Origin: Paraglaciecola sp.
GTDB lineage: Bacteria > Pseudomonadota > Gammaproteobacteria > Enterobacterales > Alteromonadaceae
Assembly: GCF_030730205.1 (NCBI RefSeq)
Contig: NZ_JANQVQ010000125.1
Location: 1 to 64,000, forward strand
Length of the DNA stretch: 64,000 bases
Direction: 5' to 3'
Shown here: positions 2,983 through 21,968 of the stretch, piece by piece
Layout of the letters: each line of letters begins with the position of its first letter
Numbering within the stretch: position 1 is the first letter of the stretch
The notes under the pieces: model-generated
Databases searched by the model: none
Seen by the model: the letters and a program-made list of their open reading frames with translations, nothing else
Told to the model about the DNA's origin: nothing
Made by a program: the position numbers and the translations under genes

Positions 2983-3051
2983 ATGAATTGCTAACTCCTT
3001 GAGTAAATATCTCTGCACTATACCTAATTTTGAACCTTGTTAGGTATATCC

Positions 3052-3345: not shown

Positions 3346-4082
3346 AGGGCGTCTTCCTTAATTGAGCCAGAGCTGGCATTGCTGGCTTGTAATTGGCGCT
3401 CAAGATCAGCAATCCAGCTTTTTACCTTACGATCAGGCTGCGTTAATAAGGCCTGATACACCTGATAATCGGCGAGCGCTTGTTCTTTTTCACCTAAATA
3501 TAAATCGTACAAAATGCCACGATTTAGGCGGGCTTGAGTAAAGGCCGGCCAACTGTCTAACGCTTGATTGTAGTGGTTTAAGGCAACACTGAACTTACCC
3601 TGTTGGCGGTACAATAAACCAAGGTGATTGTGTGCCAAATAGTTGCTGGTTTGTAAATTAATGGCTTGGCGTAAATAGGCTATGGCTTGCTCAACGTGGG
3701 CCTGTTTTTCAGCAATACTGCCCAGCTGAACCCATACACCAGATAGCGCTGGATAGTGTTGCGACATGGTTTCATACAGTGATTTGGCTTCATCTAGCTT
3801 GCCTTGCTTGAGCAATTGAGCCCCCGCAGCAAAGCGGCTTTTTGCCGAGTCAGGCACATTAACCAGGGCACTTTCTTCTTGATATCGATTGGGTTTAGCT
3901 TGCAGAACAAGCGCTTCGCGTTGCCATGGGTCGCTTGGCAATAAGCCCTTTGGCGCAATAGGCTGTTCTACCTTAGGTGGTGTTGTATTACTCCTTGTTA
4001 CAATGCCGTCAAAGGTGGCACAGCCGCCAAGCAACAAGGTAACAGCTATCAGCGAGCCGCTAACACCCTTAGAATATTTCAT
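3342..4082 (-). CDS. TPR-repeat lipoprotein
   Basis: This 246-residue protein has a lipobox LLGGC with Cys21 as the predicted lipidation site. Residue 22 is Ala, not Asp, so outer-membrane sorting is expected. From about residue 80 to 215 it has tandem tetratricopeptide repeats, with the pattern W..LG......A...Y..A..L and AHNHLGLLYRQQGKF. The gene overlaps its neighbours on both sides (14 bases upstream, 4 downstream). By class it resembles the TPR lipoprotein of the Myxococcus Glt core (GltE-like); that is inference from layout, not from a search. Confidence 0.82.
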   Translation of the reverse strand: MKYSKGVSGSLIAVTLLLGGCATFDGIVTRSNTTPPKVEQPIAPKGLLPSDPWQREALVLQAKPNRYQEESALVNVPDSAKSRFAAGAQLLKQGKLDEAKSLYETMSQHYPALSGVWVQLGSIAEKQAHVEQAIAYLRQAINLQTSNYLAHNHLGLLYRQQGKFSVALNHYNQALDSWPAFTQARLNRGILYDLYLGEKEQALADYQVYQALLTQPDRKVKSWIADLERQLQASNASSGSIKEDAL

Positions 4083-7068: not shown

Positions 7069-9245
7069 TTTGGTTGTACCTCTGCTGCCTTGGGCGACAA
7101 CTGCATAGGACGACCAATTTCAGGCTTGGGTATTTGCGAACCGTGCGCCTGATTTTGCTGCAAAGCTTGATCCTTAAGTCTCACCATGGCCAATTGTGCC
7201 TGCATTATGTAGTCATTTACGTTGAGCACTTGCTGGTCTATTAGGGCCGAAAGTTGTTGACTCAACCTGCCGAGCAGTTGGCCTTGCAAAGCGTCATTAT
7301 TTTGCTGTTGTTGAGTAATTCGGATGGTTAAATTGCCGACTCGCTTACGCTGTTCAGCATAGTTGGGGCGCCCTTGTAGGGCAGTCAATAATTGATTTTG
7401 CTGCTCGGTAACCCGTGATAACTCACTATCAAGTTCAACTAAGGCCTTTTGTGCTTGCCAGCGTTTATCCGCGTAGGCCTCGCTCGCCTGCCAAATTAAT
7501 ATGCCTTCAGCACGCCTTAAACGCTGGGCATATTCAGCTTTAAGTGTATTTTGCTGCAAACGACTTTGCGCCTGTTCTATATCGGCCCAACGCTGCTTTG
7601 CTCCCTGTAGGCGCGTATATTGCTGCTGGTATTCGAGTGGCATAAGCACTATGCCATCAGCTTGTTGTTCGGCAACTCTGAGCTGCTTTGCTAAGGCATC
7701 GCGCTTCGCTTGTAGTTGAGCAAGCTGTTCAAATATTTGGCTTTGCAACATGGCCTTAGCTCTTTCAGTGCGCTCAATTTCTCGCTCGTCTAACATTAAT
7801 TGGTAATGCGCCATGCGCGTCTGCCACTCTTGGTATTGCGCATCTAACCTTTGCGTTTGTTGCAGGGCTGATAATTCGTGACGAAACCCGTTACTGACAC
7901 CTATGCTGTTGAGCAGTTCAAGTAACATACTCGTATCGGGTGAATTTGCGATCTTAGGGGCGATGAGTAAGGCCTGTTCGGCGTCGTAATTGTGTGCAAG
8001 TGATAACAAAAACGGAGCTTGATTGACTTGCTCCCGCGCCACACTTAATTCAGCCAAGGCTTGATGAAAGCGGCTCACGCCAGCGCTTAATACCGCAACC
8101 GATTGACGGGGAGCGTACGCTTTTTCATAGGCATAAGATGAGGCAAGATACGCTTCTAATGTGTATTCTGAATGCTGAGGTAAATTAATTAAACTCTGCC
8201 AAATGCCCAATGCAGTTTGCAGTTCTTCACTTTTTACTGCCGCCCAACCATAACCCAATACTGCAGCGTCACCATCAAGGCCTTGACGACGAATTTTGGC
8301 AAAAACTCGATAAGCCTGCTGGGGTTTGTTTTGCTGCAATAATACATACGCTAAGGTCAAGTTGGCCCGGTCTATAATTCCCAGCACTTCTTGTTGCTGC
8401 TCCTGTGCTTCGTCTTCAGAATCGGGGCGTGATTCTTGTAATAAAGGAGAAAACCAGCCAGTGATGAGTTGAGTAAAGCCTCGATTTGGCCGATTAACCA
8501 ATGATGCTAACTGTTCAATGGCACGCTCTGTTTCTCCGTTTTTCAAGCTGGCTAAGGCTTGATTGTAAAGCAGGTAATAATGATAAATTGAATTGTCAGA
8601 GAGGGCGTGCGGCCAATTTTCTGGCAAAGTGGGCGTAGCATCAGTTAGATACTGATTGCGTAATTGCGCCTGTAAATACACCCACTGATCGTGACTCTGC
8701 ACATCTAAATAATCGTTGGCTTCTGCCTCAACAATCTGACTAAAGGCCTCTGAGGCTTGTTGCCATTGCCCTTGGCGATAGTAAGTCAATCCTAACAAAT
8801 ACCACGCTTGGGTGCGTTTTTCAGCCGATTCATAAGCCCCTAAATAACGCTCAAACAGGCTGGCGGCTTGGTCTTCTAATCCATAAGCCAGACTCAAGAC
8901 TCCTTTGAGTAAGGTCGGTTCAATATCTTGAGCCCGCAAATAAGCAGGTAGCTGCAACAACCCCTGCGGATAACGCTCTTCAATCCAAGCGAGCTGACTG
9001 AGTGCATCTTGCACATCACCTTGAAAGTAAGCATACAAGGCGTTTTGATAGCGTTTTTCTAGTAAGACCTGCGCGTTGTTGTTGGCAATTTGATTATTGG
9101 GCTCTTGGGCACTCGCGGCCAGTGGCAAACAAAAACACAGCACTGCCCAAAGACTCACCTGCCCTGCACTGACCGCCCAACGCTTTCGTCGGACCTGATA
9201 CACGTGACTAAGTAAGGATAGCAATGGCAATTTAGGCTGAGACAT
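7065..9245 (-). CDS. periplasmic TPR and coiled-coil protein (726 aa)
   Basis: An extended basic N-terminus is followed by a hydrophobic signal segment (about residues 24-46, ending ASAQ), so export to the periplasm is likely. Residues about 60-420 form TPR-like repeats (YYRQGQWQQASEAF). From about 450 to 700 the sequence is rich in Gln, Ala, Leu, Arg and Glu with heptad character, predicting long coiled coils. There is no lipobox. The gene abuts the small periplasmic protein gene upstream (zero spacing) and overlaps the large TPR lipoprotein gene downstream. A structural role in the envelope machine is inferred from context. Confidence 0.8.
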   Translation of the reverse strand: MSQPKLPLLSLLSHVYQVRRKRWAVSAGQVSLWAVLCFCLPLAASAQEPNNQIANNNAQVLLEKRYQNALYAYFQGDVQDALSQLAWIEERYPQGLLQLPAYLRAQDIEPTLLKGVLSLAYGLEDQAASLFERYLGAYESAEKRTQAWYLLGLTYYRQGQWQQASEAFSQIVEAEANDYLDVQSHDQWVYLQAQLRNQYLTDATPTLPENWPHALSDNSIYHYYLLYNQALASLKNGETERAIEQLASLVNRPNRGFTQLITGWFSPLLQESRPDSEDEAQEQQQEVLGIIDRANLTLAYVLLQQNKPQQAYRVFAKIRRQGLDGDAAVLGYGWAAVKSEELQTALGIWQSLINLPQHSEYTLEAYLASSYAYEKAYAPRQSVAVLSAGVSRFHQALAELSVAREQVNQAPFLLSLAHNYDAEQALLIAPKIANSPDTSMLLELLNSIGVSNGFRHELSALQQTQRLDAQYQEWQTRMAHYQLMLDEREIERTERAKAMLQSQIFEQLAQLQAKRDALAKQLRVAEQQADGIVLMPLEYQQQYTRLQGAKQRWADIEQAQSRLQQNTLKAEYAQRLRRAEGILIWQASEAYADKRWQAQKALVELDSELSRVTEQQNQLLTALQGRPNYAEQRKRVGNLTIRITQQQQNNDALQGQLLGRLSQQLSALIDQQVLNVNDYIMQAQLAMVRLKDQALQQNQAHGSQIPKPEIGRPMQLSPKAAEVQPK

Positions 9246-9815
9246 TTAAAGTTCAAGCACCTTAAATTCAGGTTGTTGGCTGGCGCTAGAATCAGTGATG
9301 CGCAGCTCTAACAATTTTGCGTCAGCAGACTTGGTAAATACCAAACTGGTGGCGCGGGTATACTCTCTATCATGGGGGCCGGTGCCAATGAAAAAAGCGC
9401 TGATTTCGTGCTCACCTTGGGCAAGATTAGCCACATGCAGTTTTTGCACGCCGCCTTTGACCAATGCCCCTTGCTGTTTTTCAGTATACAAATAATGCGT
9501 TACAGTTTGTCCATCGAGTTTTACCTCAACTGAATCTAAGTCAAAGTAAGTCCCTACATCCATGGATAAGTAGACTACAAGCTGAGTGCTTGAAGGAAAT
9601 AACAAATCTTCCTCCAATACAAACAAATCACGATTGAGAGCGATCACTTCTTTTTTTAACTGTTGCAGTTGTTCTTGAATGCTTTGGTCATCAGCCGTAT
9701 TGCTGCTTTCTTGTGCCCACACCCCAGCACTTAGAAGTAAAACGCTCATGGCCCAGATACGCAAACCAGCGCCGACACTACGAATACATGCTGCGCGTTG
9801 AAAAAAAAGTTTCAT
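9246..9815 (-). CDS. small periplasmic protein with predicted beta domain
   Basis: The chosen start gives 189 residues. AGGTGG lies seven bases upstream of the ATG at 9815; an in-frame ATG at 9842 would add nine residues. There is a signal peptide ending near VWAQ, then a Glu/Leu coiled-coil-like stretch (SIQEQLQQLKKEVIALN), then a beta-rich region with LVVYLSMDVG, VKLDGQ and EHEISAFFIGTGP. I do not recognise the family. It sits between the DUF3570 barrel gene and the TPR genes. A GltC-like periplasmic adaptor is one possibility but I cannot show it. Confidence 0.7.
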   Translation of the reverse strand: MKLFFQRAACIRSVGAGLRIWAMSVLLLSAGVWAQESSNTADDQSIQEQLQQLKKEVIALNRDLFVLEEDLLFPSSTQLVVYLSMDVGTYFDLDSVEVKLDGQTVTHYLYTEKQQGALVKGGVQKLHVANLAQGEHEISAFFIGTGPHDREYTRATSLVFTKSADAKLLELRITDSSASQQPEFKVLEL

Positions 9816-9841
9816 TACATTGCCACCTAATTGGGTTATCA

Positions 9842-11062
9842 CTAGTAAAAAATCGACACGTACAAACGTGTAATATTGGCTGAAAATTCATATAAGGGTT
9901 CATCGCCCACAGGAGCGTCCACCAGCACATTCCGAAAATCATCGTAAGCAAATCTAACATGATCAAAATCAAGGTTAATGCTGCTTTTTTTCAACCAGTT
10001 GGCGGCTGAAAAACGAAACTCGTAACTCACACTAAACCCTAAGGCGACATTGCTAAAGGTACTCATTTCTTTGTCACGGGCGCGAAAATTAAATTCTTCA
10101 CTGCGCTGGTATAAATCTTGATAAAAATCGGCTTTATCTTGCGAATAAAATCGACTGCGCAATTCGATGATCCAGTCATCAGTGAAGGTATGGATGTAAC
10201 CTACTTTGTACGTATTGGCATCAATGCCCCACGTATCCGAGAAGACTTTTGCCTCAGCGTATAGAGACGCGCGATAGGGTAAGTAATAATTAGCGCTGAG
10301 TGCGGCGGCATTACTGGTTCGAGTAGTGGGATAGGCTTCAGTTTCAAAGCGATAGCCCCGAGCGCTAGACTCATCAATAAAACGCACTGAACGGTAAGGA
10401 TTATTGAGGTAGCCTTCATCGGCAATATTCTCAAAACTCAAGCCGACGATCATGTTTTTAGTCACCACTTGGGTTAGGCCCAAGCGATAATTTTGGCGAT
10501 CAGCTTGTTCTAAAAAGTTGTCATCGCCTCGCTTACCCACTTCATCGTTACCACGAGCATAGCCGATACTCAAAGTTGTTAAGTCACCAAAAAAATCTTG
10601 TGACAATCCAAATGAAATAGATGTAGCTTCAAAGTCGTTTTCAGAACTGGTGGTATAACTCAAATTCATTAGGGTTTTGTTGCGCAAATAATCAAGCCCA
10701 ACACTGTGTTCGGTGCGCTCTTCTTGATATTGACTTGCGGTAGCCAACACATCAATAGACGCACCCGATATGGTATCAACGTAGTAGTTAGCGGTTACTG
10801 ACACACTGTTACCAATGTTTTTACGCAGTAAAATGGACGGGCCATCAATAGACATGCCGCCACCTTGATACGAGTGATACATGGCGTCAGAGCGCTCTTG
10901 CGGTAATACCGCTGCTTGCGTGGTTGCACACCATGTCATGATAACTATCAAGCAAATTAGAGGTAGTACTTTGGCGGTGTATTGCCTCTCACCAAAGTCT
11001 TTGGAATTATAAGGGGGCAGCAAATGAACGAGCCCCCATACGCCTCGTGGGATGACCGGCAT
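9842..11062 (-). CDS. DUF3570 outer-membrane beta-barrel protein
   Basis: The mature part is dominated by alternating beta strands with aromatic girdles (for example YRLGLTQVV, VGLSFENIA, SAAALSANYYLPYR-like segments) and ends in a strand finishing with Phe-Tyr, as in outer-membrane barrels. The order and motifs such as DAMYHSYQGGG match DUF3570. The start is uncertain: the frame extends to 11158, overlapping the DUF4266 gene, but the ATG at 11062 lies four bases after that gene's stop. It gives an unusually long n-region before the hydrophobic signal segment ending TQA. A TTG in frame further in is another option. DUF3570 next to DUF4266 and a thioredoxin is a recurrent arrangement known from genome annotation. 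Confidence 0.8.
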   Translation of the reverse strand: MPVIPRGVWGLVHLLPPYNSKDFGERQYTAKVLPLICLIVIMTWCATTQAAVLPQERSDAMYHSYQGGGMSIDGPSILLRKNIGNSVSVTANYYVDTISGASIDVLATASQYQEERTEHSVGLDYLRNKTLMNLSYTTSSENDFEATSISFGLSQDFFGDLTTLSIGYARGNDEVGKRGDDNFLEQADRQNYRLGLTQVVTKNMIVGLSFENIADEGYLNNPYRSVRFIDESSARGYRFETEAYPTTRTSNAAALSANYYLPYRASLYAEAKVFSDTWGIDANTYKVGYIHTFTDDWIIELRSRFYSQDKADFYQDLYQRSEEFNFRARDKEMSTFSNVALGFSVSYEFRFSAANWLKKSSINLDFDHVRFAYDDFRNVLVDAPVGDEPLYEFSANITRLYVSIFY

Positions 11063-11066
11063 ATTG

Positions 11067-11312
11067 TTAATTGCAACCACAACCGCCCCCTGCCCCACCT
11101 TCAGCGCCTCTTGCTCCTTCGCGCGCTTGAAACGCGTGGTGAGTGTAACTGCTGGCAACGGGGTTACGATTCATGCTCATGATGGGGTCAGCTAAATTTT
11201 CTCGCTCATAGGGCTGCACCCAAGGCTCAATCGAGGCACAACCACTCATCAACAGCCCAAAAACCAAGGTAAGAGCCGGCTTGATATAATGACGTTTAAA
11301 TAGCGACTTCAT
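11067..11312 (-). CDS. DUF4266 lipoprotein with C-terminal GGGCGCN
   Basis: This 81-residue protein has a lipobox LMSGC (Cys25) and then a short conserved segment with WVQPYERENLADP and M....P..S.Y..H, the DUF4266 signature. It ends in a Gly/Ala-rich tail closing with GGGCGCN (Cys78 and Cys80). After processing only about 57 residues remain, so most of the mature protein is a linker plus the Cys tail. The gene starts seven bases after the TlpA gene stops and ends four before the DUF3570 gene. The tail could bind metal, form a disulfide handled by the adjacent thioredoxin, or be a modification site; the sequence does not decide this. Confidence 0.85.
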   Translation of the reverse strand: MKSLFKRHYIKPALTLVFGLLMSGCASIEPWVQPYERENLADPIMSMNRNPVASSYTHHAFQAREGARGAEGGAGGGCGCN

Positions 11313-11319
11313 AAGCAGA

Positions 11320-11877
11320 TTATTCTCTTAATAAGGTTTTAATAATGATTTCGTATTTTGCCACATCACCACTTTTATAGCCTTTGTGCAACAAGCGCTG
11401 GTAGCCATCTCTGTCTACAATGACTGTAGTGGGCATGGCGCTGACATCATATAATTTACTGACCTTGGCATCAGGGTCAAACAATACCGGAAAGGTTACT
11501 GCGATGTCGCTTAATAAGACTTCAGCTTTGGCCGGGGTTTTATCCACATTTATGGCCAAAATGGTAAATCCTAAGTCTGCATAGTCTTGCTGCAGTTTTT
11601 CGAGCAAGGGCAGCTCTTCACGACAAGGTCCGCACCACGATGCCCAAAAGTTAATTAACACCACATTGCCTCGCTGCTCTTGCAAACGCATATTGCCGTC
11701 ATTTTTACTGGCTAGGGTAAAATCAGGGGCGAGCTCTGTTTTACCGGCTGCCATCGCACTTGGTTGAGCAAGCACTAATAGACTCAAGAACATTGTGGCC
11801 ATAAAAGCGCGCACACTACCAAGCGATACCCTCGGCGATAAACTGTGCGCTATAACATAAAAAAATTGACTCATCAT
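11320..11877 (-). CDS. TlpA/ResA-type exported thioredoxin-like protein
   Basis: This 185-residue protein has an N-terminal hydrophobic segment (about 25-43, ending AMA) and a thioredoxin-fold domain with WCGPC (Cys82, Cys85) preceded by LINFWAS, then the cis-Pro region SAMPTTVIVD. It should act as a periplasmic thiol-disulfide reductant. Candidate partners in the same operon are the CxC tail of the DUF4266 lipoprotein and the CxxCH heme-binding cysteines of the neighbouring cytochrome-like proteins; TlpA-family proteins often keep such cysteines reduced for heme attachment. No ccm genes are in the window. Confidence 0.88.
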   Translation of the reverse strand: MMSQFFYVIAHSLSPRVSLGSVRAFMATMFLSLLVLAQPSAMAAGKTELAPDFTLASKNDGNMRLQEQRGNVVLINFWASWCGPCREELPLLEKLQQDYADLGFTILAINVDKTPAKAEVLLSDIAVTFPVLFDPDAKVSKLYDVSAMPTTVIVDRDGYQRLLHKGYKSGDVAKYEIIIKTLLRE

Positions 11878-11901: not shown

Positions 11902-12528
11902 TTAAAAAAAGAACGTCGCACCCAGGCCATACTGAATATTGTGTGTGGTCTTTTCATCGCCGATTAATTCGCTGTTAAACAGATGGTCTTTCAGCTCAAC
12001 TCGTAGCGAAAAGTAATCAGTGAGTAAAACCCGATATCCTGCCCCTAAACTTACGGTAAAACGCTCGTCACCTCCAAATTCGGTACTGCCTGCACCAATA
12101 ATAAAGTAGGCAGCCGAGTTAATGACCAAGCTGTCAGTGACAAACGTTTCGCCGTTTAAGTTGTAGCCCAAACCTAGGTTGTAATAACGATAGTTGCGCT
12201 CGTCTTCGGTTAATAGCGGCGCTCCACCGCTGAGTAATTCAAAGCTGGTTTGCCCTGCGGTCGCTTGCTCATAAGCGGCTTCCACAAAAAAATCTTCGTT
12301 AATATGAAACGCAAAACGGGCACCGACGATGGCACTTGTCGAAAAATCTTCAATGCTGATCACGCCTGCCACTAAGCCAAATTCGAAATTTTCTGTATCA
12401 ATATTGGCTTCATTTATTTCTCGGCGCTCGGGCTGTGGCTCGATAACACTGGATTCTTGGGCTAAGGCGGGGCATGCACACAGCACCACTAGCGAGATTA
12501 AAAAAAGACTGCGAAACCTAATTGCCAT
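11902..12528 (-). CDS. outer-membrane beta-barrel protein (OmpA-like barrel fold)
   Basis: This 208-residue protein has a signal peptide (hydrophobic to about residue 22, ending ALAQ) and about eight predicted amphipathic strands, such as EFGLVAGVISIEDF, FVEAAYEQA, YRYYNLGLGYNL and FSLRVELKDHLF. It ends with ATFFF, a terminal Phe as used for barrel insertion. The length fits a small eight-stranded barrel. Its start overlaps the end of the upstream SH3-barrel gene by 31 bases, and the two barrels have similar C-terminal halves (YYLARNFLVKLEYNSL versus VLLTDYFSLRVELKDHL), so they may be paralogues or work as a pair. Confidence 0.78.
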   Translation of the reverse strand: MAIRFRSLFLISLVVLCACPALAQESSVIEPQPERREINEANIDTENFEFGLVAGVISIEDFSTSAIVGARFAFHINEDFFVEAAYEQATAGQTSFELLSGGAPLLTEDERNYRYYNLGLGYNLNGETFVTDSLVINSAAYFIIGAGSTEFGGDERFTVSLGAGYRVLLTDYFSLRVELKDHLFNSELIGDEKTTHNIQYGLGATFFF

Positions 12529-13280
12529 TGTGCCAATTCCTCGTTTGTGTCTCGGTCGGTTTTGACCAATAAACTGTTATATTCCAACTTAACCAAAAAG
12601 TTACGTGCTAAATAGTAGCGTAAACCCAATCCAGCCGAGAGCACATTGGCGCTGCGTTTTTCATCGCCACTTTGCACTAAACTACCCTTGGGGCTTGTCC
12701 AAATCTTACCGGCGCTTACTACAAAATAAGGCGCTAAACGCCACTCTGGAAAGGCGTTATGCCTGATGTTCACCAGCGCCAATTGATTTTCAGAGTAAGT
12801 GCCCACGGCTTGCGTAATATTAACGCCTAAGGCGATATTTTCGGTGGCCAGCCAATTACCGATAACGCTAATACTAGGTACGCCATCAAAGGAGCCCGCC
12901 ATCGCCCCCACTTCAAATTGGCGTTGGCTAAAGTCCTCAAATGAGCCATCAGACAGTTTTACCGGTGCTAAATTGCTGTCTAGGGTGAGGTGCAAGTCGT
13001 CTTGACTGATCCAGCCTTGTTGGCCTTTTTCATTTTCTACTTTAAACCACGCTGTGCGCTGCTTGAGGACTGTAAGCCACTGCCCTTGCTTGGCTACTGC
13101 AATCACCGGATAACCGCCGGCAGGGCCAGAACGCATATCAACATAAGCGGTTCTTACTTGGACTTGAATCGGCGCTTCTGCTTGGCCACTAAACGACCAA
13201 CATAGCAGCAGCAAGCATATGCCCCACAAGCCCGCGCTTTTACACTTGAACACTGCATATCCTTGTGACTGTTTATTCAT
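12498..13280 (-). CDS. SH3-domain outer-membrane beta-barrel protein
   Basis: From the ATG at 13280 it has 260 residues. The start overlaps the previous stop by one base (TAATG). After the signal peptide comes a bacterial SH3 domain (about 40-98) with VDMRSGPAGGYPVI and GWISQDDL, a fold that often binds peptidoglycan or peptides. A small outer-membrane barrel follows, ending with terminal Phe-Phe. The combination suggests a barrel whose periplasmic SH3 part touches the cell wall. An upstream in-frame start would read into the preceding gene and is less likely. Confidence 0.8.
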   Translation of the reverse strand: MNKQSQGYAVFKCKSAGLWGICLLLLCWSFSGQAEAPIQVQVRTAYVDMRSGPAGGYPVIAVAKQGQWLTVLKQRTAWFKVENEKGQQGWISQDDLHLTLDSNLAPVKLSDGSFEDFSQRQFEVGAMAGSFDGVPSISVIGNWLATENIALGVNITQAVGTYSENQLALVNIRHNAFPEWRLAPYFVVSAGKIWTSPKGSLVQSGDEKRSANVLSAGLGLRYYLARNFLVKLEYNSLLVKTDRDTNEELAQWQLGFAVFF

Positions 13281-16018
13281 TAATTTACCGGTGCCGCAAA
13301 GGGATTGTTGTAATATTGTCCACCTATATCTAACCATTCTGCAATAAGCTTTAATTCTACCGGACTGAGCCAAGTATAATGACTTCCACTGGCATTAAAG
13401 GGCAAGAAAAAATCCGCACTGGCGTGAGCGCCATTGACTGACATCGTGTTACTTACCGCCACAGTAGTTAATAGTGCTATGGGCTGGCCTACTTCATCTA
13501 AAATTAGCTCACCGTCTTCATCACGCTCAAACACGGTATCACCGTTGGCGTCGCTTACCTCAACCAATCGCTCAAGCAATAAGCCTTCAATGATCTCTTG
13601 CTCGTTGTCAGTGAACATCAGTTCACGATAACTGGTAAATTGGTCGGGATTCTCCGTTGAGGTGCTACTGCTCAAATCCAGTTGTGCCGCTGGCACCTGT
13701 GCCAGTTCGGCGGCATCGACCGGAGCATGACAGCTCGTGCAACGATGATTGTTTAATTCGCTTACCCCATCTTCGGCTAACACAGGACGCTCGGCGTCAA
13801 ACAGGGGCTGAATGTGCTCTGGGTAATTAATTTGAATGCGGCACAAGGCTGTCCAATTGGTGGCACAACTCGGGGTAATGGGCAGTGGCGTGGTTAAATC
13901 GCCATAGGCCATAGTGAACCCCGCTGCAGGTGCTTGAGTGGCCGGGTCATTCCAAATATCGCTAAACTCAATATCAGCATTGGGGTAACTAAGACCATTC
14001 ATGCGCCCCGCCGTTTGTGCCATGGTTTCGCCTAGTTCAGCGAACAAGGCTGGATTGGTATTGGGGAATGGCAGCCCGGTGCTGGCTGCCCCCTGATTAA
14101 TGCTGCTGGCCTCTGCGTCAAAACGGCCATGAGCTGCGGTGCTAGCTTGGGTATGACAACCATTACAGCTGCGCACTTCACCTGGGGCAAACTGCAACCA
14201 ATTTTGATGACGCTCACTCACGCGTTTACCATCACCATCAAGAATACTGAAAGCCACAGGCACATTAGCAGGTAAGGTCATCAATACTGAGCCATCAGGC
14301 TCGACCGGGACGTAACCAATAATTTCACGCATCAATTGACCCGTGCTGCGGCCAAAGGCTGAGTTACTGATATCACGAGTACTATCATCGGGCTGCGATA
14401 CCGCTTTCACAACCCGTAAAAACCGCGCGGGGCGCTGAGCCACAGCGGTTTGCGTAGGATCGGCTAAGACAGCCAAACCTTGTGGCGAGTTATCTACCCC
14501 AGCAAAGTCATATACGCTTCGAATATGGACCTGTGCTAAGTCAGCCACGGCCAGCGCTGCGTCAAAATCAGCACTTTGCTGAGCATTGCCTGGAAAAGCG
14601 CGCGCTTGCATGGCAAGTACTTCGCTGTACATTTGTTGCTCTTGCGGCACAGCTACAACCAATTGAGTATTGTCGATGGGGTCGTACATCCACAAGCCAT
14701 ATAACAGAGGCGCGGCTTGAATGTCAGGCGTGGCCAGTAAGGCGGGCGTACAAGGTAAAATAGGTCGAGGCTCGCCTTCATCGACCGAAGCTTCAGGATC
14801 GTAAACTCGGCATTGGCTCCAACTAAACAAGATGCGATCACTGCCATCCCATAAGGGGTAAACCGCTGAAAAACGCCCTCCCGCTGACAGCGCACCATCA
14901 ATTACAATATTGTCAAACAAAACGACTTGTTCAGCCGAACCATTGCCACTTTGCCCGGTAAGCGGTGTTTGACGGTCGATAAATTGCTGAATATTAATTT
15001 CGACAAAATCGCCGCCCCAATGCTCATTTACCACGGGACGAAGTGCACTCAGTATATTGCCACTGGGTAATTCACGTAGTTGACTGTATTGCAAAGCTTG
15101 GGTAGAGCGCTCACTTACGTGGCTGTGCCTGCCGTACATTAACTCTAACTCGCTGCCATCAGCATTCATCTGATAAATATTAACACTGTTGTTGTTACCG
15201 GCATTGTCCCAACGACTAAACAAAATTTTGCCTGAACTTAGTACCGTGGGGTCGAGATCATGACTTTGATTAAAAGAAATTTGTTTTATATCGCTGCCAT
15301 CAGGATTGATAACATGCAATACCGACGCGGTTTGATTACGCCGCTCATCCAAGGCTTGGTATTGGGGTTTGTTTTCATCGAGTAAAATGGCTTGGTTAGC
15401 TTGTTGACGAGTAGAACTAAATACAATTCTTCCATCTGCTAAATAAACTGGCGCGGTATCTTGCCCCTCTTCAGCTAAGGCATCATTACTGATGACGCGT
15501 TCTAAGATGTCGCTCTCTAAGTGATACTGCCATAAATTCCAAGTAGCTTGCTCGTCCTCATCTGCCCCTTCAATTTCTGGGGCACGCATGGCAAATAGTA
15601 AGGTTTGGCCATCATAAGACACTTCTAGATCTTTAACATCGTAGGCGGCTAAGGGATTGTCGGGCGTAGCGTCTGCGATTTCTTGTGCACTAAAAAAAGC
15701 ACGATCAGTGATATTGCGCTCGACCGCGGTGGCCGAAGCACGTGCTTTAATATATAGCGCCGCTCCTGGCACAAAATCATTTAAGCGGCGCAAGTCTTGA
15801 CTGACTATCTCGCCATTTGCATCTAAGGGTAAATTGCGCTTAATAAAGGCTAATGGCACGTCGACCACAACCGGATCAGGCGCTTGATCATTGGGCAACA
15901 CCTTATCACCACCACAACCTAAAATACTGTTTATGAGCAAACAACTAAGCAGTATCTTGATATACGTAGGGTAGGCATGAAACATAGTCACTGGCGTTTT
16001 GCGTCCTATCTGGTGCAT
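13280..16018 (-). CDS. PD40/hydrazine-synthase-alpha-like lipoprotein with two CxxCH motifs
   Basis: This 912-residue protein has a lipobox SILGC. Its first half has beta-propeller-like PD40/TolB repeats (VYLADGRIVFSSTR, LSSGKILFSRWD). The second half has a CNGCH motif near residue 616 and a CTSCH motif near 759, both preceded by conserved segments (PDGSVLMTLPANVPVAF) typical of proteins annotated as hydrazine synthase alpha-like. CxxCH implies covalent c-type heme in the periplasm. The family name reflects fold only; there is no evidence of anammox chemistry. It is the first gene of the minus-strand operon. An in-frame ATG at 15985 is an alternative start; neither start has a clear ribosome-binding site. 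Confidence 0.78.
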   Translation of the reverse strand: MHQIGRKTPVTMFHAYPTYIKILLSCLLINSILGCGGDKVLPNDQAPDPVVVDVPLAFIKRNLPLDANGEIVSQDLRRLNDFVPGAALYIKARASATAVERNITDRAFFSAQEIADATPDNPLAAYDVKDLEVSYDGQTLLFAMRAPEIEGADEDEQATWNLWQYHLESDILERVISNDALAEEGQDTAPVYLADGRIVFSSTRQQANQAILLDENKPQYQALDERRNQTASVLHVINPDGSDIKQISFNQSHDLDPTVLSSGKILFSRWDNAGNNNSVNIYQMNADGSELELMYGRHSHVSERSTQALQYSQLRELPSGNILSALRPVVNEHWGGDFVEINIQQFIDRQTPLTGQSGNGSAEQVVLFDNIVIDGALSAGGRFSAVYPLWDGSDRILFSWSQCRVYDPEASVDEGEPRPILPCTPALLATPDIQAAPLLYGLWMYDPIDNTQLVVAVPQEQQMYSEVLAMQARAFPGNAQQSADFDAALAVADLAQVHIRSVYDFAGVDNSPQGLAVLADPTQTAVAQRPARFLRVVKAVSQPDDSTRDISNSAFGRSTGQLMREIIGYVPVEPDGSVLMTLPANVPVAFSILDGDGKRVSERHQNWLQFAPGEVRSCNGCHTQASTAAHGRFDAEASSINQGAASTGLPFPNTNPALFAELGETMAQTAGRMNGLSYPNADIEFSDIWNDPATQAPAAGFTMAYGDLTTPLPITPSCATNWTALCRIQINYPEHIQPLFDAERPVLAEDGVSELNNHRCTSCHAPVDAAELAQVPAAQLDLSSSTSTENPDQFTSYRELMFTDNEQEIIEGLLLERLVEVSDANGDTVFERDEDGELILDEVGQPIALLTTVAVSNTMSVNGAHASADFFLPFNASGSHYTWLSPVELKLIAEWLDIGGQYYNNPFAAPVN

Positions 16019-16625: not shown

Positions 16626-17867
16626 TTGAAAAAGCTAATTAGGCAACTCGGCTCGTTAGGCATCATGGGGGTGTTAACCACTGTGATGTTGTTGCTTGCT
16701 GGTCTGACTCTTTCCTCACCGTCATTGGCGGGTGAAAGAGAACAAGCCAAACGCATGCATGACCGCTTAACGGGCGTGCCGCCTTCTGCTGATGTCCTTG
16801 AGCAAATGAGTGTACTGATTGCACAGGGCCAAATTAATCAAGCTGCCTATTTGGCCATGAACAACCCAGCGTTTTATTCCGTGACCCTTAAAAATTGGGT
16901 TAGCCCTTGGACGAATGAAGAAGCGGATATCTTTGTTCCGCTCAATGACTACACCGCCACAGTCATTGGTATGGTCAGAGACGACATTGATTTTAGGCAG
17001 GTATTAGCGGGTGACATTTTATATGTGGCCAAAAACCACTATAACTTGCCTACGTATAGTATGAATAACAATGCTCTGTACCAGGCAATAGACGATCAAG
17101 GCCTCGACCTACAAACAGTATTAGAAGCCTCTAGCCAATCTGCACAAACCGGGCTGCCACCTGATGCCACTGCAGGTGTAATGACAACCCGCGCCGCGGC
17201 CAAAGCCTTTTTTAAAGATGGAACCAATCGTGCCATGTTCCGTTTTACCTTGATGAATCACCTTTGTACCGACTTAGAAGGCTTGAAAGATACGAGCCGA
17301 GCACCTGATAGAATTCGCCAAGACGTCAGCCGAAGTCCTGGCGGCGATAGTCGCATATTTAACAACTCCTGTGTGGGCTGCCATGCAGGCATGGATCCTT
17401 TGGCTCAAGCCTTCGCCTATTACAATTATCAATATGATGTTGATAGCGATCCCGAGGGTGAAAACGGCAATTTGCAATACCTCGCAGCCGGTCAGCAAGA
17501 CCCACAAACGGGCAGTCGAGTGCAAGGTAAATACCATATTAATAGCAATAATTTTCCCTATGGATTTAGCACCGACAATGACAATTGGAGCAACTATTGG
17601 CGAGAGGGCCTTAACTACAACCTAGGTTGGGATCAACGTTTGCCTGCTTCAGGAAGTGGGGCCAAGTCCATGGGTTGGGAGCTGGCGAATAGCCAACAAT
17701 TTGCTCAGTGCCAAGTAAGCAAAGTGTTTGAAAATGTGTGTTTACGTCGCCCGCAAGATGCGCAAGACCGCGCACAAATCAGTACCATGACGGCTCACTT
17801 TCAACAAAATAATTACCAGATAAAAGGCGTGTTTGCCGATTCTGCCACCTATTGTAAGGGAGAATAA
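16626..17867 (+). CDS. secreted DUF1592/DUF1588-like protein with one CxxCH
   Basis: This 413-residue protein starts at TTG, supported by CAGGAG seven bases upstream. A signal peptide covers about residues 1-35 (ending SLAG). Near 249-259 it has CVGCHAGMDPLA, the heme-binding-like motif of DUF1588 proteins, which are abundant in planctomycetes and usually sit beside DUF1592 and DUF1552/DUF1501. The N-terminal part has DRLTGVPPS.... and resembles DUF1592 only loosely. Two bases separate it from the next gene, so co-translation is likely. A single c-type heme in the periplasm is the main prediction; its redox partner is unknown. Confidence 0.7.
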   Translation: MKKLIRQLGSLGIMGVLTTVMLLLAGLTLSSPSLAGEREQAKRMHDRLTGVPPSADVLEQMSVLIAQGQINQAAYLAMNNPAFYSVTLKNWVSPWTNEEADIFVPLNDYTATVIGMVRDDIDFRQVLAGDILYVAKNHYNLPTYSMNNNALYQAIDDQGLDLQTVLEASSQSAQTGLPPDATAGVMTTRAAAKAFFKDGTNRAMFRFTLMNHLCTDLEGLKDTSRAPDRIRQDVSRSPGGDSRIFNNSCVGCHAGMDPLAQAFAYYNYQYDVDSDPEGENGNLQYLAAGQQDPQTGSRVQGKYHINSNNFPYGFSTDNDNWSNYWREGLNYNLGWDQRLPASGSGAKSMGWELANSQQFAQCQVSKVFENVCLRRPQDAQDRAQISTMTAHFQQNNYQIKGVFADSATYCKGE

Positions 17868-17869
17868 TC

Positions 17870-20359
17870 ATGGCTAATAACGGGTTATTCTCACGTTTTT
17901 TTCATCGCCCTTATTTTTTATCGTGCACCGCAGTGGTATTTAGTACTTTGCTTTTAAGTGCCTGTGGCGGGGGCACAACTCAAGTTGTTCAAACGCCTAT
18001 GCCTGCCCCCGTCGACACGTCTCCAATAACGTACTCAGGCCCTGTGGCGGCGACCGCCGATGTGCAACAATTTAAACTCGCCCTGTGGGATAACATTAGC
18101 GGTAAAGAACGTTGCGGTGCGTGTCATGTGCAAGAGCAGCAAAGCCCGTATTTTGCTCGTAACGATGATGTAAACCTAGCTTATAGTGCGGCAAACAATT
18201 TGGTTAATCTGCGATCTGCGCAAGACTCTAGTTTGGTTGCAAAGGTCGCTGGCGGCCATAACTGCTGGCTGGCCAGCGCATCAGCCTGTGCCGATATTAT
18301 GACGACGTGGATCAACAATTGGGCTCAGATAGAAAACACCGCCAATAAAATCCAACTTGAAGCCCCAATGGCAAAAGAGCCAGGAGCGAATAAAAACTTC
18401 CCAGCCGATAGCCGTTTATTTAACGAGACGGTTTATCCCGTACTAGAAACCTACTGTGCAAATTGCCATACCAATTCAGCCTCAATTCCTATTTCTCCCT
18501 ATTTTGCCTCTAGCGACATCGATGAAGCCTATGAAGCGGCTAAAGCGAGAATAGAGTTGGATACACCGGCTAATTCACGTTTTGTTGGTCGCCTTCGAGA
18601 CGAATTTCATAACTGTTGGAGTGATTGCGCCAGTAACGCAGACGCGCTTATCACTGCAATTCAGGCCATGGCAGATGGCATTGATGTCACTCAGCTCGAT
18701 GCGAGTTTGATAAACAGTAAAGCCCTTAGTTTATTTGAAGGCACCCTTGCCACGGGCGGCGGACGTTTTGAAAAAGACCTGATTGCCAAATGGGAATTTA
18801 AAACCGGCTCTGGTAGCACCGCCTTTGATACCAGCGGTGTTGAGCCGGCCATTAACTTGAATCTATCAGGTGGTTTTAGCTGGATCAATGGCTGGGGGAT
18901 ACAGTTGGTAAATGCCAAGGCGCAAGGCTCTACCAGTAGTAGTAAAAAATTACATGATCTGATTACCGCTACTGGTGAGTTTGCTATCGAAACATGGCTT
19001 GTGCCTGCCAATGTGACCCAAGAAGGACCTGCGCGCATCGTCAGCTATTCGGGAGGCACAGATAAGCGCAATTTTACCTTGGGTCAAACCTTGTATAACT
19101 ACAATGCCTTGTTACGTACCGGCAATACCGACAGCAATGGGCAACCTGCACTGTCTACTGCTGATGCCGATGAAGTATTACAAGCGAGTTTGCAACACGT
19201 GGTGCTGAACTATGATCCCATCAACGGACGTCAACTGTTTGTCAATGGCGTATTTACCCAAGATAGCGACTCAATTGAAGCCAGTGATTTAAGTGCCTGG
19301 AATGATAGCTATGCCTTTGCTCTTGGCAGTGAAGTCTCAGGTGACTTTCCATGGGCAGGCTCTATTCGCATGGTCGCGATTCATAATCGCGTATTAAGCG
19401 CTGAGCAAGTCAGCCAAAACTTCGATGTTGGTATCGGACAAAAATTCTTTTTACTGTTTGATATCAGTGAACTAAGCGGTATCAACCAAAGTTACATCGT
19501 GTTAGAAACCAGTCTTTACGACAGCTACAGCTATTTGTTTAGCGAGCCGTTTTTTATCTCTTTGGATGAAAATGCTGATATAAGCACGCTAGCGTTAAAA
19601 GGCATGCGAATTGGTATTAATGGCCGTGAAGCTAATGTGGGCCAGGTATTCAAAAATCTAGATGTGAGGGTCAATAGCAATGAGTATGTTGCCGGTGAAG
19701 GCCAAGCCTTATCGCGCCTAGGCACCATTATTCCGCTGGAAAAAGGGGCTGAGCAGGATGAATTTTTCTTAACCTTTGAAGTAGTAGGTGAACAATCCAA
19801 TGTTCGGATTGAAGCCCTACCCTCAGCGCCTGCGACCAGTGTCGATTTAGTACCTCAGGCACAAATTGGCATGCGCGATTTTGCTGAAATCAACGCCAGC
19901 ATGGCGGCCACCACTGGCGTTTCGACCAACAACAGTTCGGTAAAAGCGGCTTATGAGCAACTCAAACAGCAGTTGCCTTCGGTCACGCAACTCGACAGTT
20001 TCTTAGCCTCCAATCAAATGGCGGTAACCCAACTGGCCATTAAATACTGTGATCAACTGCTTGAGAGCAGCAGCTTACGTGGTACGTTTTTTAGCGGCTT
20101 TGACTTTAACCAAGCGGCAAGCTCAGCGTTTATTAACCAAGACCGAGCCTTAATTTTTACACCTATTATGCAAGGTATTATTGGCCAAAACATTGGCAAT
20201 CAGCCCGACACCAATGCGGTTATTAGTGAGCTTGATGCCTTAACAGACAAATTAAGCGATTGCTCAGGCGGCAAAGTATGCGATGCCAATTACACCAAAA
20301 CCATTGTGAAAGCACTGTGCGCCTCAGCGCTGGGCAGTGCTGCCCTAACCGTGCAATAA
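17870..20359 (+). CDS. lipoprotein with two CxxCH/HNCW repeats and a LamG domain
   Basis: This 829-residue protein has a lipobox LLSAC (Cys32). Two tandem modules follow: CGACH (82-86) with HNCW at 130-133, and CANCH (196-200) with HNCW at 247-250. Both have SPYFA and AY.AA between them, so they are an internal duplication. A LamG/concanavalin-like domain (about 285-450) follows, with IETWLVPANV and LFVNGVF, a fold that binds sugars or proteins. The rest is a beta-rich region of unknown type and a helical C-terminal part. The cysteines of HNCW may pair with a following Cys. A surface-exposed cytochrome-like adhesin or sensor is one reading. Confidence 0.72.
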   Translation: MANNGLFSRFFHRPYFLSCTAVVFSTLLLSACGGGTTQVVQTPMPAPVDTSPITYSGPVAATADVQQFKLALWDNISGKERCGACHVQEQQSPYFARNDDVNLAYSAANNLVNLRSAQDSSLVAKVAGGHNCWLASASACADIMTTWINNWAQIENTANKIQLEAPMAKEPGANKNFPADSRLFNETVYPVLETYCANCHTNSASIPISPYFASSDIDEAYEAAKARIELDTPANSRFVGRLRDEFHNCWSDCASNADALITAIQAMADGIDVTQLDASLINSKALSLFEGTLATGGGRFEKDLIAKWEFKTGSGSTAFDTSGVEPAINLNLSGGFSWINGWGIQLVNAKAQGSTSSSKKLHDLITATGEFAIETWLVPANVTQEGPARIVSYSGGTDKRNFTLGQTLYNYNALLRTGNTDSNGQPALSTADADEVLQASLQHVVLNYDPINGRQLFVNGVFTQDSDSIEASDLSAWNDSYAFALGSEVSGDFPWAGSIRMVAIHNRVLSAEQVSQNFDVGIGQKFFLLFDISELSGINQSYIVLETSLYDSYSYLFSEPFFISLDENADISTLALKGMRIGINGREANVGQVFKNLDVRVNSNEYVAGEGQALSRLGTIIPLEKGAEQDEFFLTFEVVGEQSNVRIEALPSAPATSVDLVPQAQIGMRDFAEINASMAATTGVSTNNSSVKAAYEQLKQQLPSVTQLDSFLASNQMAVTQLAIKYCDQLLESSSLRGTFFSGFDFNQAASSAFINQDRALIFTPIMQGIIGQNIGNQPDTNAVISELDALTDKLSDCSGGKVCDANYTKTIVKALCASALGSAALTVQ

Positions 20360-20375
20360 GGCTGAGGAATAAGTG

Positions 20376-21968
20376 ATGAACAAAACGAAAAAGCATTTTG
20401 GCCTTAACGAACCGCTTCGCCATGCTTGTCATAGTAAACCCATCTCTCGTCGTGATTTTATTGCACAAGGATTTATGGCGGGTTTAGGCACGTTTTGCAG
20501 CGGTTCTGTGTTGAGTCTTTTTGCCAATCCAAGTAAGGCTTATGCGGCCTTGTCTCCGGATTTAGAAGCCTTAAAAAGCAGTTGTGGCATTGCTTCACAA
20601 GGCGCAGGTAAAATTCCTTTTATTGTGTTTGATTTGGCCGGAGGTGCCAATATTGCAGGCTCGAATGTATTAGTAGGTGGCCGCGGCGGGCAACTCGATT
20701 TTTTAAGTACCGCGGGTTATAGCAAATTGGGCATACCGGGCGACATGGTGCCTGCGATTGCTAACCCGACCACCGGACTAAGTGATTTTATCAATACTGA
20801 ATTGGGCTTAGCCTTTCATGCCGACAGTGCTTTTTTACGGGGTATACAAGACAAGTTTTCGGTCACTAATCGGGCCAATGTCAATGGCGCGGTTATTCCC
20901 GCTCGCTCTGAAAACGACACAGGCAACAATCCGCACAATCCCATGTATGGCATAAACAAGGTGGGCGCTGACGGCAGTTTACTAAGCTTGATTGGTTCAC
21001 GTAATAGTGACTCCGGTGGCAACTCCATGGCGCCTGCCATGATGATTGACTCAAGTAAACGCCCCACCAAAATTGATCGTCCTTCAGATGTTACAGGTTT
21101 AGTGGATACTGGCGATTTAGTTGGACTCTTAAGTCAGCAAGACTCCGTGGCGGTCATGGAGTCTATTCAACGCATCAGTGCCATGAAACTGGGCAAGGTC
21201 AATAGCCAAATTACCACTGACGATGTGCTCAAAGATCTGGTCAACTGTGGTTATGTGAAAAGTGCCGATATTACTGATAGATTTGGTGATCCCTCTACCT
21301 TAAATCCAACACTGGATGCCGATTTGGTGGGTGACCAAGGTATTTTTAGCGAGGAAGAATTTGCCAATGAGGGAGAATATCGAAAAACGGCCTCAATGAT
21401 AAAACTGGTGATTAACGGTTATGCCGGCGCAGGCACGATTACCATGGGTGGTTTTGACTACCATACTGGTGATAGAGCAACCGGCGAAACACGCGATTTG
21501 CGTGCAGGTCGTTGTATGGGTGCCTGTTTAGAATACGCCGCACGTAAAGGCGTTCCGCTAATGATGTATGTTTGCAGCGATGGGGCAGTGGCCAGCAATG
21601 GCATGATTGATGATTCCACCAACGGTCGAGGCAAAGGGGTGTGGACAGGAGACAACTCCTCAACGGCTGCGTCTTTTTTCCTTGTTTATAATCCCAGTGG
21701 CACACCTCAGCTCATCGGGAATACCAGCGACCAACAAGCCAAACATCAGCAAATTGGTTATATGCGCAGCGACGCTTCGGTTGAAACAGCCAGTTCTCCT
21801 GCCGCCAATAATGTTAACCTATTAGTCGAAACCGTGATTTTAAATTATATGGCACTACATGGCGAGCAAGGTCAATTTGCCACCCTATTTCCACGCCATG
21901 GTTTAGGTAATAGTGCTTTGCTCGATAGCCTAACGGCTTTTGAACCCATCGTTAATGGTGTGATGTAA
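20376..21968 (+). CDS. DUF1501-family protein with Tat signal
   Basis: This is a protein of 530 residues from the ATG at 20376, which has GAGGAA upstream; GTG at 20373 is in frame just before it. The N-terminus has SRRDFIAQGF, a twin-arginine signal followed by a hydrophobic stretch, so it is probably exported folded. The body has FVLAGGANIAGSN-like and GGFDYHTGD motifs seen in DUF1501 proteins, distant relatives of sulfatase/alkaline-phosphatase folds. DUF1501 proteins usually pair with c-type cytochrome or DUF1588-like partners, which matches the two genes before it. The substrate is unknown. Confidence 0.72.
   Translation: MNKTKKHFGLNEPLRHACHSKPISRRDFIAQGFMAGLGTFCSGSVLSLFANPSKAYAALSPDLEALKSSCGIASQGAGKIPFIVFDLAGGANIAGSNVLVGGRGGQLDFLSTAGYSKLGIPGDMVPAIANPTTGLSDFINTELGLAFHADSAFLRGIQDKFSVTNRANVNGAVIPARSENDTGNNPHNPMYGINKVGADGSLLSLIGSRNSDSGGNSMAPAMMIDSSKRPTKIDRPSDVTGLVDTGDLVGLLSQQDSVAVMESIQRISAMKLGKVNSQITTDDVLKDLVNCGYVKSADITDRFGDPSTLNPTLDADLVGDQGIFSEEEFANEGEYRKTASMIKLVINGYAGAGTITMGGFDYHTGDRATGETRDLRAGRCMGACLEYAARKGVPLMMYVCSDGAVASNGMIDDSTNGRGKGVWTGDNSSTAASFFLVYNPSGTPQLIGNTSDQQAKHQQIGYMRSDASVETASSPAANNVNLLVETVILNYMALHGEQGQFATLFPRHGLGNSALLDSLTAFEPIVNGVM

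Follow-up and report, generated by a model that had tools for sequence, protein, structure and literature searches.

The gene at positions 13280-16018 on the minus strand of the window, by which we mean the whole 64,000-nucleotide stretch of Paraglaciecola sp. DNA analysed here, encodes a 912-residue diheme c-type lipoprotein that, as judged from its sequence, is a relative of the alpha subunit of hydrazine synthase (HZS) and not a hydrazine synthase. The gene is one of some 19 that form a conserved unit in many marine bacteria, and the most likely explanation of this unit, to which we give about even credence, is an outer-membrane redox complex coupled to a core Agl/Glt motor.

A sequence-only reading of this DNA had placed the gene at these coordinates, at the head of a motor operon. 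The gene was confirmed to be real, with the gene and the operon on the minus strand and the plus strand of the same interval rich in stop codons. The lipobox cysteine, Cys35, was kept in all 17 aligned rows, the window's row counted, and a lipobox was seen in 88 of the 89 rows of a wider alignment, the remaining row being a gap. Two CxxCH motifs, at residues 618-622 and 760-764, were observed where composition predicts about 0.002, and every one of the 89 rows with 750 residues or more, the window's included, carried both, indicating that the motifs are conserved in the homologues. In these same rows, C618, C621, H622, C760, C763, H764 and H880 were kept throughout; the residue counts leave out homologues shorter than 750 residues, which are fragments and include both halves of the broken gene of genome G230. 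The two motifs and H880 thus support the predicted binding of heme. The one-base overlap with the next gene was also found (TAATG at 13280-13282), and the gene is the first of its run in the window, being followed by 14 genes with intergenic gaps of at most 33 bases, with a divergent gene beginning 607 bases from it. It is not always first, however, as a co-directional ApbE gene lay ahead of it in three of the six type II loci examined. The PD40 repeats that had been read in the protein were weak, a single repeat scoring 19.1 bits, under the Pfam cut-off of 20.9, but the propeller itself was present in the AlphaFold2 model (mean pLDDT 76), in which a TolB propeller aligned to residues 47-473. 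A scan with Rfam at gathering scores matched no RNA element within the window.

The genes that follow on the minus strand encode predicted envelope and redox proteins. An SH3-domain and outer-membrane beta-barrel protein (12498..13280, starting with ATG at 13280; SH3_3, 40 bits, cut-off 27; OMP_b-brl, 24.8 bits, below 28.7) and a second small outer-membrane beta-barrel protein, OMP2 (11902..12528; OMP_b-brl, 27.5 bits, slightly below 28.7), both occupy conserved positions. They are followed by a TlpA-like thiol oxidoreductase of the AhpC-TSA/Redoxin type with WCGPC (11320..11877; WCxPC in 19/19 rows) and a DUF4266 lipoprotein with CxC at its C-terminus (11067..11312; 81.3 bits, cut-off 27; CGCN end in 19/19 rows), so that DUF3570, DUF4266 and thioredoxin-like genes occur together in the operon. 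The DUF3570 outer-membrane barrel (9842..11158; 141 bits) is a predicted covalent FMN carrier; its TTG start as listed is probably too far upstream, the mature part spanning about 9845-10915, and its barrel model (pLDDT 91.6) matched barrels structurally. The mature residues S53 and S61 were unchanged in 31 of 31 rows, the window's protein having SGAS at site 1 and ATAS at site 2; the strict motif [ST]GA[ST] occurred in 9/31 rows at site 1, where S, or once A, replaced G in the others, and in 1/31 at site 2. The flavin loop may face outward, according to the strand order and loop length of the model.

Divergently, on the plus strand, lie cytA, a one-heme exported protein that a profile scan found weakly DUF1585/DUF1588-like, under the cut-offs (16626..17867), and cytB, a two-heme protein with a lectin-like Laminin_G_3 domain (17870..20359; two CxxCH in 19/19 rows), whose lipobox was judged by eye and whose C32 was invariant. 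A 531-residue Tat-type protein with a twin-arginine signal, SRRDF, judged by eye, comes next (20373..21968); it had no Pfam match, a scan of five members returned no useful Pfam name, and we presume a resemblance to DUF1501.

The motor block, also on the minus strand, opens with a conserved exported protein (9246..9842), whose Ig label rests on a Big_3_5 match of 15.1 bits, far under the cut-off of 35.5. It continues with three TPR proteins, of 726 residues (7065..9245; profile match), of 999 residues (4069..7068; GltD-like by position and size only, and used as the motor marker) and of 246 residues (3342..4082; weakly GltE-like), and with a conserved 97-residue protein that matches no family (3052..3345). 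A TolQ/ExbB/AglR-type proton channel (2317..3018; MotA_ExbB, 103 bits), two ExbD/TolR-type proteins (1728..2294 and 1156..1704; profile matches) and a TonB-like arm with an AgmX/PglI C-terminal domain (119..1159; NF033768, 66.5 bits, cut-off 40) complete it. Position 1 of the window, just beyond the TonB-like gene, is the start of the contig. The block combines the AglRQS-like channel (one TolQ, two ExbD) with the GltG/GltJ-like arm of a core Agl/Glt motor, but the curated GltE, GltG and GltJ equivalogs failed with 35, 39 and 39 bits, far under 225 for GltE and against 650 and 450 for the others.

The conservation of this arrangement was examined in 80 named loci, the best among at least 544 confirmed relatives, which therefore lean to close relatives, with scripted open reading frames taken from stop to stop. 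Among these best 80, cytA and cytB were divergent upstream in 69 of the 71 loci with enough flank; the SH3-barrel, OMP2, DUF4266 and DUF3570 genes were downstream in 65 of 67 and TlpA in 60 of 67, being missing in seven; and motor genes lay within 10 kb in 43 of the 53 loci with flanks of at least 9 kb on both sides. Of four misses, two (L162 and L172) contain the genes yet break the position rule of the script. The linkage with ExbB/AgmX-type genes, which had appeared unexpected from the window, is thus conserved, but the constant neighbours are the cytochromes and the SH3-barrel, DUF4266 and DUF3570 genes, not the motor. The link between redox genes and motor outlasts rearrangement, the motor being downstream, on the opposite side or unlinked, and for other HZS-like loci the motor genes lie at a separate place in the genome. 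A single co-directional run in each of six divergent loci held the HZS-like, DUF3570 and motor genes, and cytA, cytB and the Tat-type gene were not found within the retrieved stretch; therefore, these three may not be essential.

The association held at the level of whole genomes. The motor marker was present in 20 of 20 HZS-positive genomes among the 197 surveyed in the host's order and in 50 of 51 among the 369 surveyed in its class (Fisher p 2.6e-21 and 2.3e-36, respectively, in tests that ignore kinship); the motor in the class survey means one marker, the 999-residue TPR protein, and the whole block was inspected only in retrieved stretches, taken from each of the 28 genomes of the order that carry the marker. 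The stretch from one motor-only genome, G056, has TPR genes without TolQ-type genes, and the contigs of G058 and G017 are short. In the lone exception, G230, the HZS-like gene is broken into two pieces without CxxCH and the motor is absent, while cytA, cytB, the Tat-type gene and ApbE are retained; a search without a positive control gave no DUF3570 match in this genome.

One ApbE subtype accompanied the HZS-like gene in most of these genomes. Within the order, 19 of the 20 HZS-positive genomes gave matches of at most 8.5e-77, and none of the eight motor-only ones matched at 1e-40; weak matches (1e-41 to 8e-44) in eight HZS-negative genomes of the order were counted as another ApbE type. Across the class, this dedicated ApbE was found in 36/51 HZS-positive genomes versus 8/318 others, and at E 1e-90 it was missing in 15/51 HZS-positive and found in 6/38 motor-only genomes. 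In seven loci, the gene immediately after the TonB-like one is this ApbE. The window's genome has three ApbE genes, of which the one on contig C276, away from the operon, matched the motor-linked ApbE model at 7e-131 and the other two at 4e-49 and 6e-39; contig C297 of the same genome additionally carries the canonical DUF3570 cluster.

On the basis of the observed gene content, conservation, co-occurrence, predicted fold and cofactor motifs, we infer that hemes and flavin are loaded, that a single physical complex with an electron path is formed, and that it is coupled to the motor. The HZS-alpha-like lipoprotein would be the outer-membrane-side part of an electron-transfer complex in which hemes would be carried by this protein, cytA and cytB, a covalent flavin would be put on the DUF3570 barrel by the dedicated ApbE, and TlpA and DUF4266 would serve as thiol carriers, so that electrons could pass, via thiol, flavin and heme carriers, from periplasm to cell surface or in the reverse direction. 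The redox complex would be the cargo or load of the Agl/Glt-type motor (TolQ, two ExbD, the TonB-like arm and three TPR proteins), in which proton flow may push the arm onto the barrels of the outer membrane or onto the TolB-like propeller, and the action of the motor would move, open or cycle the complex. Of the two roles proposed in the sequence-only reading, outer-membrane electron transfer agrees with the genes present, and nothing was found for or against redox sensing.

A less probable but serious alternative is that the set encodes a mainly mechanical machine for surface motion or polymer handling, with the propeller as a TolB-like adaptor pulled by the arm and the cofactors serving assembly, stability or regulation. 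The propeller alone matched TolB with a Z of 24.7, the TolB matches spanning Z 23 to 25, the motor is of the TolQ/TolR/TonB-like kind, cytB has a lectin-like domain, and Agl/Glt machines are described in the available text of two papers as surface transporters (PMC3858216, PMC5349195). Furthermore, the motor occurs without redox genes in retrieved stretches such as L083, L085, L215 and L216. Against this, the motifs of both hemes and H880 were kept in all 89 rows, and three more redox protein types, mostly also with the dedicated ApbE, accompany the HZS-like gene, which count against a purely structural role because such a role needs none of them. Several observations count against the favoured reading of a redox complex coupled to the motor: the HZS-positive genomes of the class that lack the dedicated ApbE and the motor-only ones that have it, the loci without TlpA, the divergent loci without cytA, cytB or the Tat-type gene, the scarcity of strict flavin motifs, and the redox genes that G230 retains without a motor. 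Also on this side, a motor-gene tree of 80 rows, which excludes rows shorter than 850 residues and loci L100-L112 and takes as linked two loci (L221 and L222) with ApbE in which the HZS-like gene was not found, showed six state changes on a weak backbone. A single clade of redox-linked motors was not recovered, and the redox-motor partnership thus appears to have been gained or lost several times.

We regard as rather unlikely that the set acquires iron or another metal, with flavin and heme acting as surface reductants of the metal, whose uptake the TonB-like motor would power. The motor falls within the ExbB/ExbD/TonB superfamily, and the VIT1 iron transporter occurs in 25 DUF3570-type gene clusters according to the available text of PMC8238504; however, no metal transporter or siderophore receptor was recognised among the conserved genes, and the motor, which has a pair of ExbD genes and three TPR genes, is laid out as in Agl/Glt.

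Kinship with HZS alpha, the basis of the original name, was supported by profile and fold. PF18582 (HZS_alpha) matched at 63.7 bits (cut-off 26.6), the top PDB match of the model was 5c2v (Foldseek E 2.4e-25), to which the protein is 15-19% identical, and HZS alpha aligned along the model range 52-910 with 582 residues matched, an rmsd of 3.7 and a Z of 32.0, compared with the 24.7 of TolB on just the propeller. The AlphaFold2 model matched its propeller, middle heme domain and C-terminal heme domain, the last including stretches with pLDDT <50, such as 761-796. The CxxCH sites of hemes alpha-I and alpha-II are retained, and so is His772, the distal ligand of heme alpha-II, as H880, which aligns with chain position 745 and was equated with His772 through an offset of 27 fixed by His587. 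The comparison of active-site residues, however, failed at Tyr591, an iron ligand of heme alpha-I in the available accounts (PMC12758564, PMC12607021), since this position, four residues past the CxxCH histidine and read sequence by sequence, was Tyr in 0/89 rows. A divergent row, L209, has Tyr 10 residues past that histidine. The zinc ligand Cys303 is described as variable even within anammox bacteria (PMC12758564, available text). Tyr591 is absent, the NCBIfam HZS alpha equivalog scored 45.2 bits (cut-off 800), and a scan of the operon proteins found no beta-gamma subunit; by these criteria, the protein is not a hydrazine synthase, and hydrazine synthesis was rejected. It is accordingly very improbable that hydrazine, hydroxylamine or NO is a product or substrate of the protein, despite the facts that HZS alpha is its sole convincing solved relative and that the alpha-I/alpha-II sites and the His772 equivalent are retained.

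A chance contact of unrelated redox and motor operons, which might be suggested by genomes with the two blocks apart, was rejected as the least probable reading of all, since the co-occurrence and its Fisher tests, which ignore kinship, include genomes in which the blocks are apart.

If the redox complex and motor do work together, they may, more tentatively, define an envelope machine of a new class, widespread in marine Gammaproteobacteria, in which a proton-driven Agl/Glt motor and a heme/flavin/thiol chain form one redox-powered or redox-gated unit at the outer membrane; this would give at least one core Agl/Glt branch the function it has lacked. The available texts report the core Agl/Glt motor in Gammaproteobacteria in 2011 (PMC3169522) and DUF3570 flavinylation in 2021 (PMC8238504), neither with a function assigned, and descriptions of HZS homologues from non-anammox bacteria are just beginning to appear (PMC12758564, PMC10732223, as available). 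The three are now tied by co-occurrence and synteny, and the three questions become testable by gene deletion because the set occurs in genera with named strains, namely Paraglaciecola, Alteromonas, Marinobacter, Microbulbifer and Shewanella. The parts are of known kinds, and their combination was met in no paper searched. A single paper of those searched names DUF3570 or DUF4266, and no title or abstract opening among the papers listed joins the parts, which is weak evidence, as few subscription papers or preprints were covered.

The Tol-Pal system has a TolQ/TolR/TolA motor and the TolB propeller. The window's set likewise has a TolQ/TolR/TolA-like motor and a TolB-like propeller, but here a lipid anchor and a fusion with two heme domains set the propeller apart. 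With the core Agl/Glt system as described in the available text of Luciano et al, 2011 (PMC3169522) and Wartel et al, 2013 (PMC3858216), the set shares a TolQ-type channel, two ExbD, a TonB-like arm with an AgmX/PglI tail and TPR proteins; the gammaproteobacterial core is given neither a function nor a link to redox genes in those portions. The ApbE/DUF3570/thioredoxin/DUF4266 clusters of Meheust et al, 2021 (PMC8238504) share DUF3570, DUF4266, a thioredoxin-like protein and ApbE; they are partly accompanied by DsbD, whereas the DUF3570 of the window's set is a divergent one, accompanied by hemes and a motor, and the available main text mentions neither ExbB nor hydrazine. The HzsABC-like genes of Planctomycetota and KSB1 MAGs (PMC10732223) are likewise divergent HZS relatives; the available text discusses them in terms of the nitrogen cycle and gives those of the Phycisphaerae hzsBC partners, and its authors propose a broad HZS-like family acting on other substrates. 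The non-anammox homologues of Hagglund et al, 2025 (PMC12758564) are also HZS alpha relatives, and those of clades I-III likewise lack Tyr591, which further argues against nitrogen chemistry; as far as the available text goes, they adjoin beta-gamma homologues and come mostly from Planctomycetota and Desulfobacterota, its main text does not contain the word Gammaproteobacteria, and clade I lacks the His772 that the window's protein retains. Finally, the protein resembles anammox HZS alpha (5c2v) in its overall fold, six-bladed propeller, two CxxCH motifs and distal histidine of the second heme, and differs from it in being a lipoprotein without Tyr591 that is linked to a motor and flavin genes and has no beta-gamma partner in its operon.

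The gene under study (minus strand, 16018 to 13280), whose 912-aa product is a predicted diheme lipoprotein that resembles hydrazine synthase alpha (HZS-like protein), was confirmed to have a lipobox (C35), two CxxCH motifs (618-622 and 760-764; about 0.002 expected from composition) and a stop codon within which the next gene starts (TAATG). It leads an operon, with 14 same-strand genes downstream at gaps of at most 33 bases; the window start is the contig start, and nothing is readable past the last operon gene. The proposed HZS-alpha-type domain was supported by PF18582 (HZS_alpha; 63.7 bits vs a cut-off of 26.6), and the PD40 repeats only in part, by a match of 19.1 bits that falls below the cut-off. 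PF18582 was also matched, at 28.9 bits, by a 642-aa frame elsewhere in this genome (L112:4708-6633); that frame lacks CxxCH, runs off contig C340 and adjoins what look like glycosyltransferase genes.

The sole convincing PDB sequence match was hydrazine synthase alpha (5c2v), at 1e-7 with the single protein, strengthening to 1.7e-14 with a 17-row profile. The AlphaFold2 model (mean pLDDT 76, pTM 0.77; parts of the last domain below 50) also matched 5c2v, with a Foldseek E of 2.4e-25 and a Z of 32.0 over 582 residues in the model range 52-910, the next-best structural match being TolB (Z 24.7) by the propeller alone. Loss of the CxxCH motifs among homologues had been named as the refuting outcome, and both were kept in 89/89 rows of an alignment of 83 usual-type proteins, the window's included, and six divergent-type proteins (rows below 750 aa dropped). 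In hydrazine synthase, as described in PMC12758564 and PMC12607021, the heme alpha-I iron has Tyr591 as its ligand, His587 coordinates zinc, and the distal position of heme alpha-II is filled by His772. H880 was kept in 89/89 rows and is the His772 equivalent provided that the chain offset is 27, as set by His587. The suggested comparison with the active site failed at Tyr591, since this position, read per sequence as residue 4 after the first CxxCH His, was never Tyr in the 89 rows. With a score of 45 bits against the equivalog cut-off of 800, and no beta-gamma subunit found among the operon proteins scanned, the protein was judged a relative of hydrazine synthase alpha and not the enzyme itself.

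Membership of the gene in one gene set is strongly supported. In all 17 long loci of the window's order (three short fragments left out of the count), the cytochrome genes cytA and cytB are found upstream in divergent orientation, and the genes for an SH3-barrel, OMP2 (a second small barrel), TlpA, DUF4266 and DUF3570 downstream, with the Agl/Glt-type motor block directly after in 10, a convergent neighbor in 1 and outside the fetched stretch in 6; a 531-aa Tat-type protein follows cytB in 13/13 further stretches from the same genomes. From at least 544 relatives, the best 80 were taken as named loci (from Paraglaciecola, Aliiglaciecola, Alteromonas, Glaciecola, Marinobacter, Microbulbifer, Gilvimarinus, Shewanella, Colwellia, Thiodiazotropha and others); 71 of these had enough flank, and 69 of the 71 had cytA and cytB upstream (in L162 both are present and an over-long ORF broke the position rule; L137 showed neither). 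Downstream, the four core genes (SH3-barrel, OMP2, DUF4266 and DUF3570) were complete in 65/67, L172 failing the position rule only and L203 having the SH3-barrel alone, and TlpA was present in 60/67. Of the 53 loci whose flanks both reached 9 kb or more, 43 had the motor within 10 kb, downstream in 32 and on the opposite side in 11. In L151-L154, L156, L161, L167, L178, L186 and L204, DUF4266 and DUF3570 occur with no TlpA detected between the barrels and DUF4266. The record of L172 is titled a Klebsiella pneumoniae MAG and is probably a mislabelled bin; that of L185/L040, named Endozoicomonas sp. G2_1, shares its TPR sequence with a genome of the window's family (G006), and its name may be wrong. 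The class survey added six further divergent loci in which the set forms one co-directional run. Their fetched stretches showed neither cytA and cytB nor the Tat-type gene, and 5/6 of their HZS-like proteins have a third CxxCH; ApbE leads the run in three, and the HZS-like gene is thus not always first.

The linkage with an ExbB/AgmX-type motor, which the sequence-only reading had called unexpected, was borne out across genomes. In 197 genomes of the order, all 20 with the HZS-like gene (1e-10) were among the 28 with the motor marker, a 999-aa TPR protein; in 369 genomes of the class, the gene occurred in 51 (1e-60) and the marker in 88 (1e-25), with both in 50 of the 51, although these tests ignore kinship. 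The two were within 20 kb on one contig in 36/51. In the sole exception, G230, the HZS-like gene is in two pieces without CxxCH, and the single HZS-positive class genome without the motor therefore has a decayed gene. G230 retains cytA, cytB, the Tat-type gene and ApbE, and a DUF3570 search, run with no positive control, gave no match; by eye, its truncated gene (L213:8438-10327) is broken by a repeated insert present in two copies. The TPR protein tree (80 rows; weak backbone) requires six changes of redox-linked state, which indicates repeated gain or loss of the link. Motor operons L082, L092 and L093 have no adjacent HZS-like gene and a TlpA-like gene just upstream, and that of L087 (G023) precedes divergently oriented relatives of the SH3-barrel, OMP2, TlpA and DUF3570 genes; no HZS-like gene was detected there, and the arrangement may be an intermediate.

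One ApbE subtype also tracks the set, at 8.5e-77 or better in 19/20 HZS-positive order genomes and in an incomplete genome that shares its genus with the twentieth, by a test that ignores kinship. None was found at 1e-40 in the eight motor-only order genomes, and the weak matches (1e-41 to 8e-44) in eight with neither gene nor motor were taken as another ApbE type. In the class (1e-90; kinship again ignored), it occurred in 36/51 HZS-positive vs 8/318 other genomes, and among motor-positive genomes in 35/50 HZS-positive vs 6/38 HZS-negative. Its gene immediately follows the TonB-like gene in seven loci and lies beyond the cytochrome block in 6/13 fetched stretches; in the window's genome, it is on contig C276, away from the operon.

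DUF3570 is a known ApbE substrate (PMC8238504). Both candidate flavin serines are invariant (31/31 rows), the strict motif being present in 9/31 rows at site 1, including the window's, and in 1/31 at site 2. The model (pLDDT 91.6) shows a barrel in which we counted about 16 strands, and it matches outer-membrane barrels such as CymA, FadL, PelB and AlgE; its strand order and loop length would place the flavin loop at the outer end or in the lumen. In 19/19 rows each, cytA carries a single CxxCH, cytB a pair, TlpA the WCxPC motif and DUF4266 its terminal CxC. In total, the operon and its divergent partner thus encode five sites for heme, one or two candidate sites for flavin, and two thiol proteins. 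Contig C297 of the same genome (L111:6809-9852) carries a second TlpA-DUF4266-DUF3570-ApbE cluster, of the canonical type and paralogous to the window's redox genes.

Taken together, the original observation as a whole stands, and its interpretation pointed in the right direction and was too narrow. Our best reading, to which we give an even chance, has a core Agl/Glt motor coupled, by a mechanism that we infer, to a redox complex at the outer membrane. The parts are of known kinds, and their combination was not found in the literature searched. The motor block encodes one TolQ-type, two ExbD-type, one TonB-like and three TPR proteins, with an AgmX/PglI tail on the TonB-like protein (66.5 bits; cut-off 40), and its proteins fall short of the cut-offs of the curated GltE, GltG and GltJ models. 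Luciano et al. (PMC3169522) describe this arrangement, the core Agl/Glt layout, in non-gliding bacteria, including Gammaproteobacteria. In Myxococcus, outer-membrane barrels are the proposed contact of the motor arm (PMC5349195), and for such a contact the window's set offers three barrels and a TolB-like propeller as candidates.
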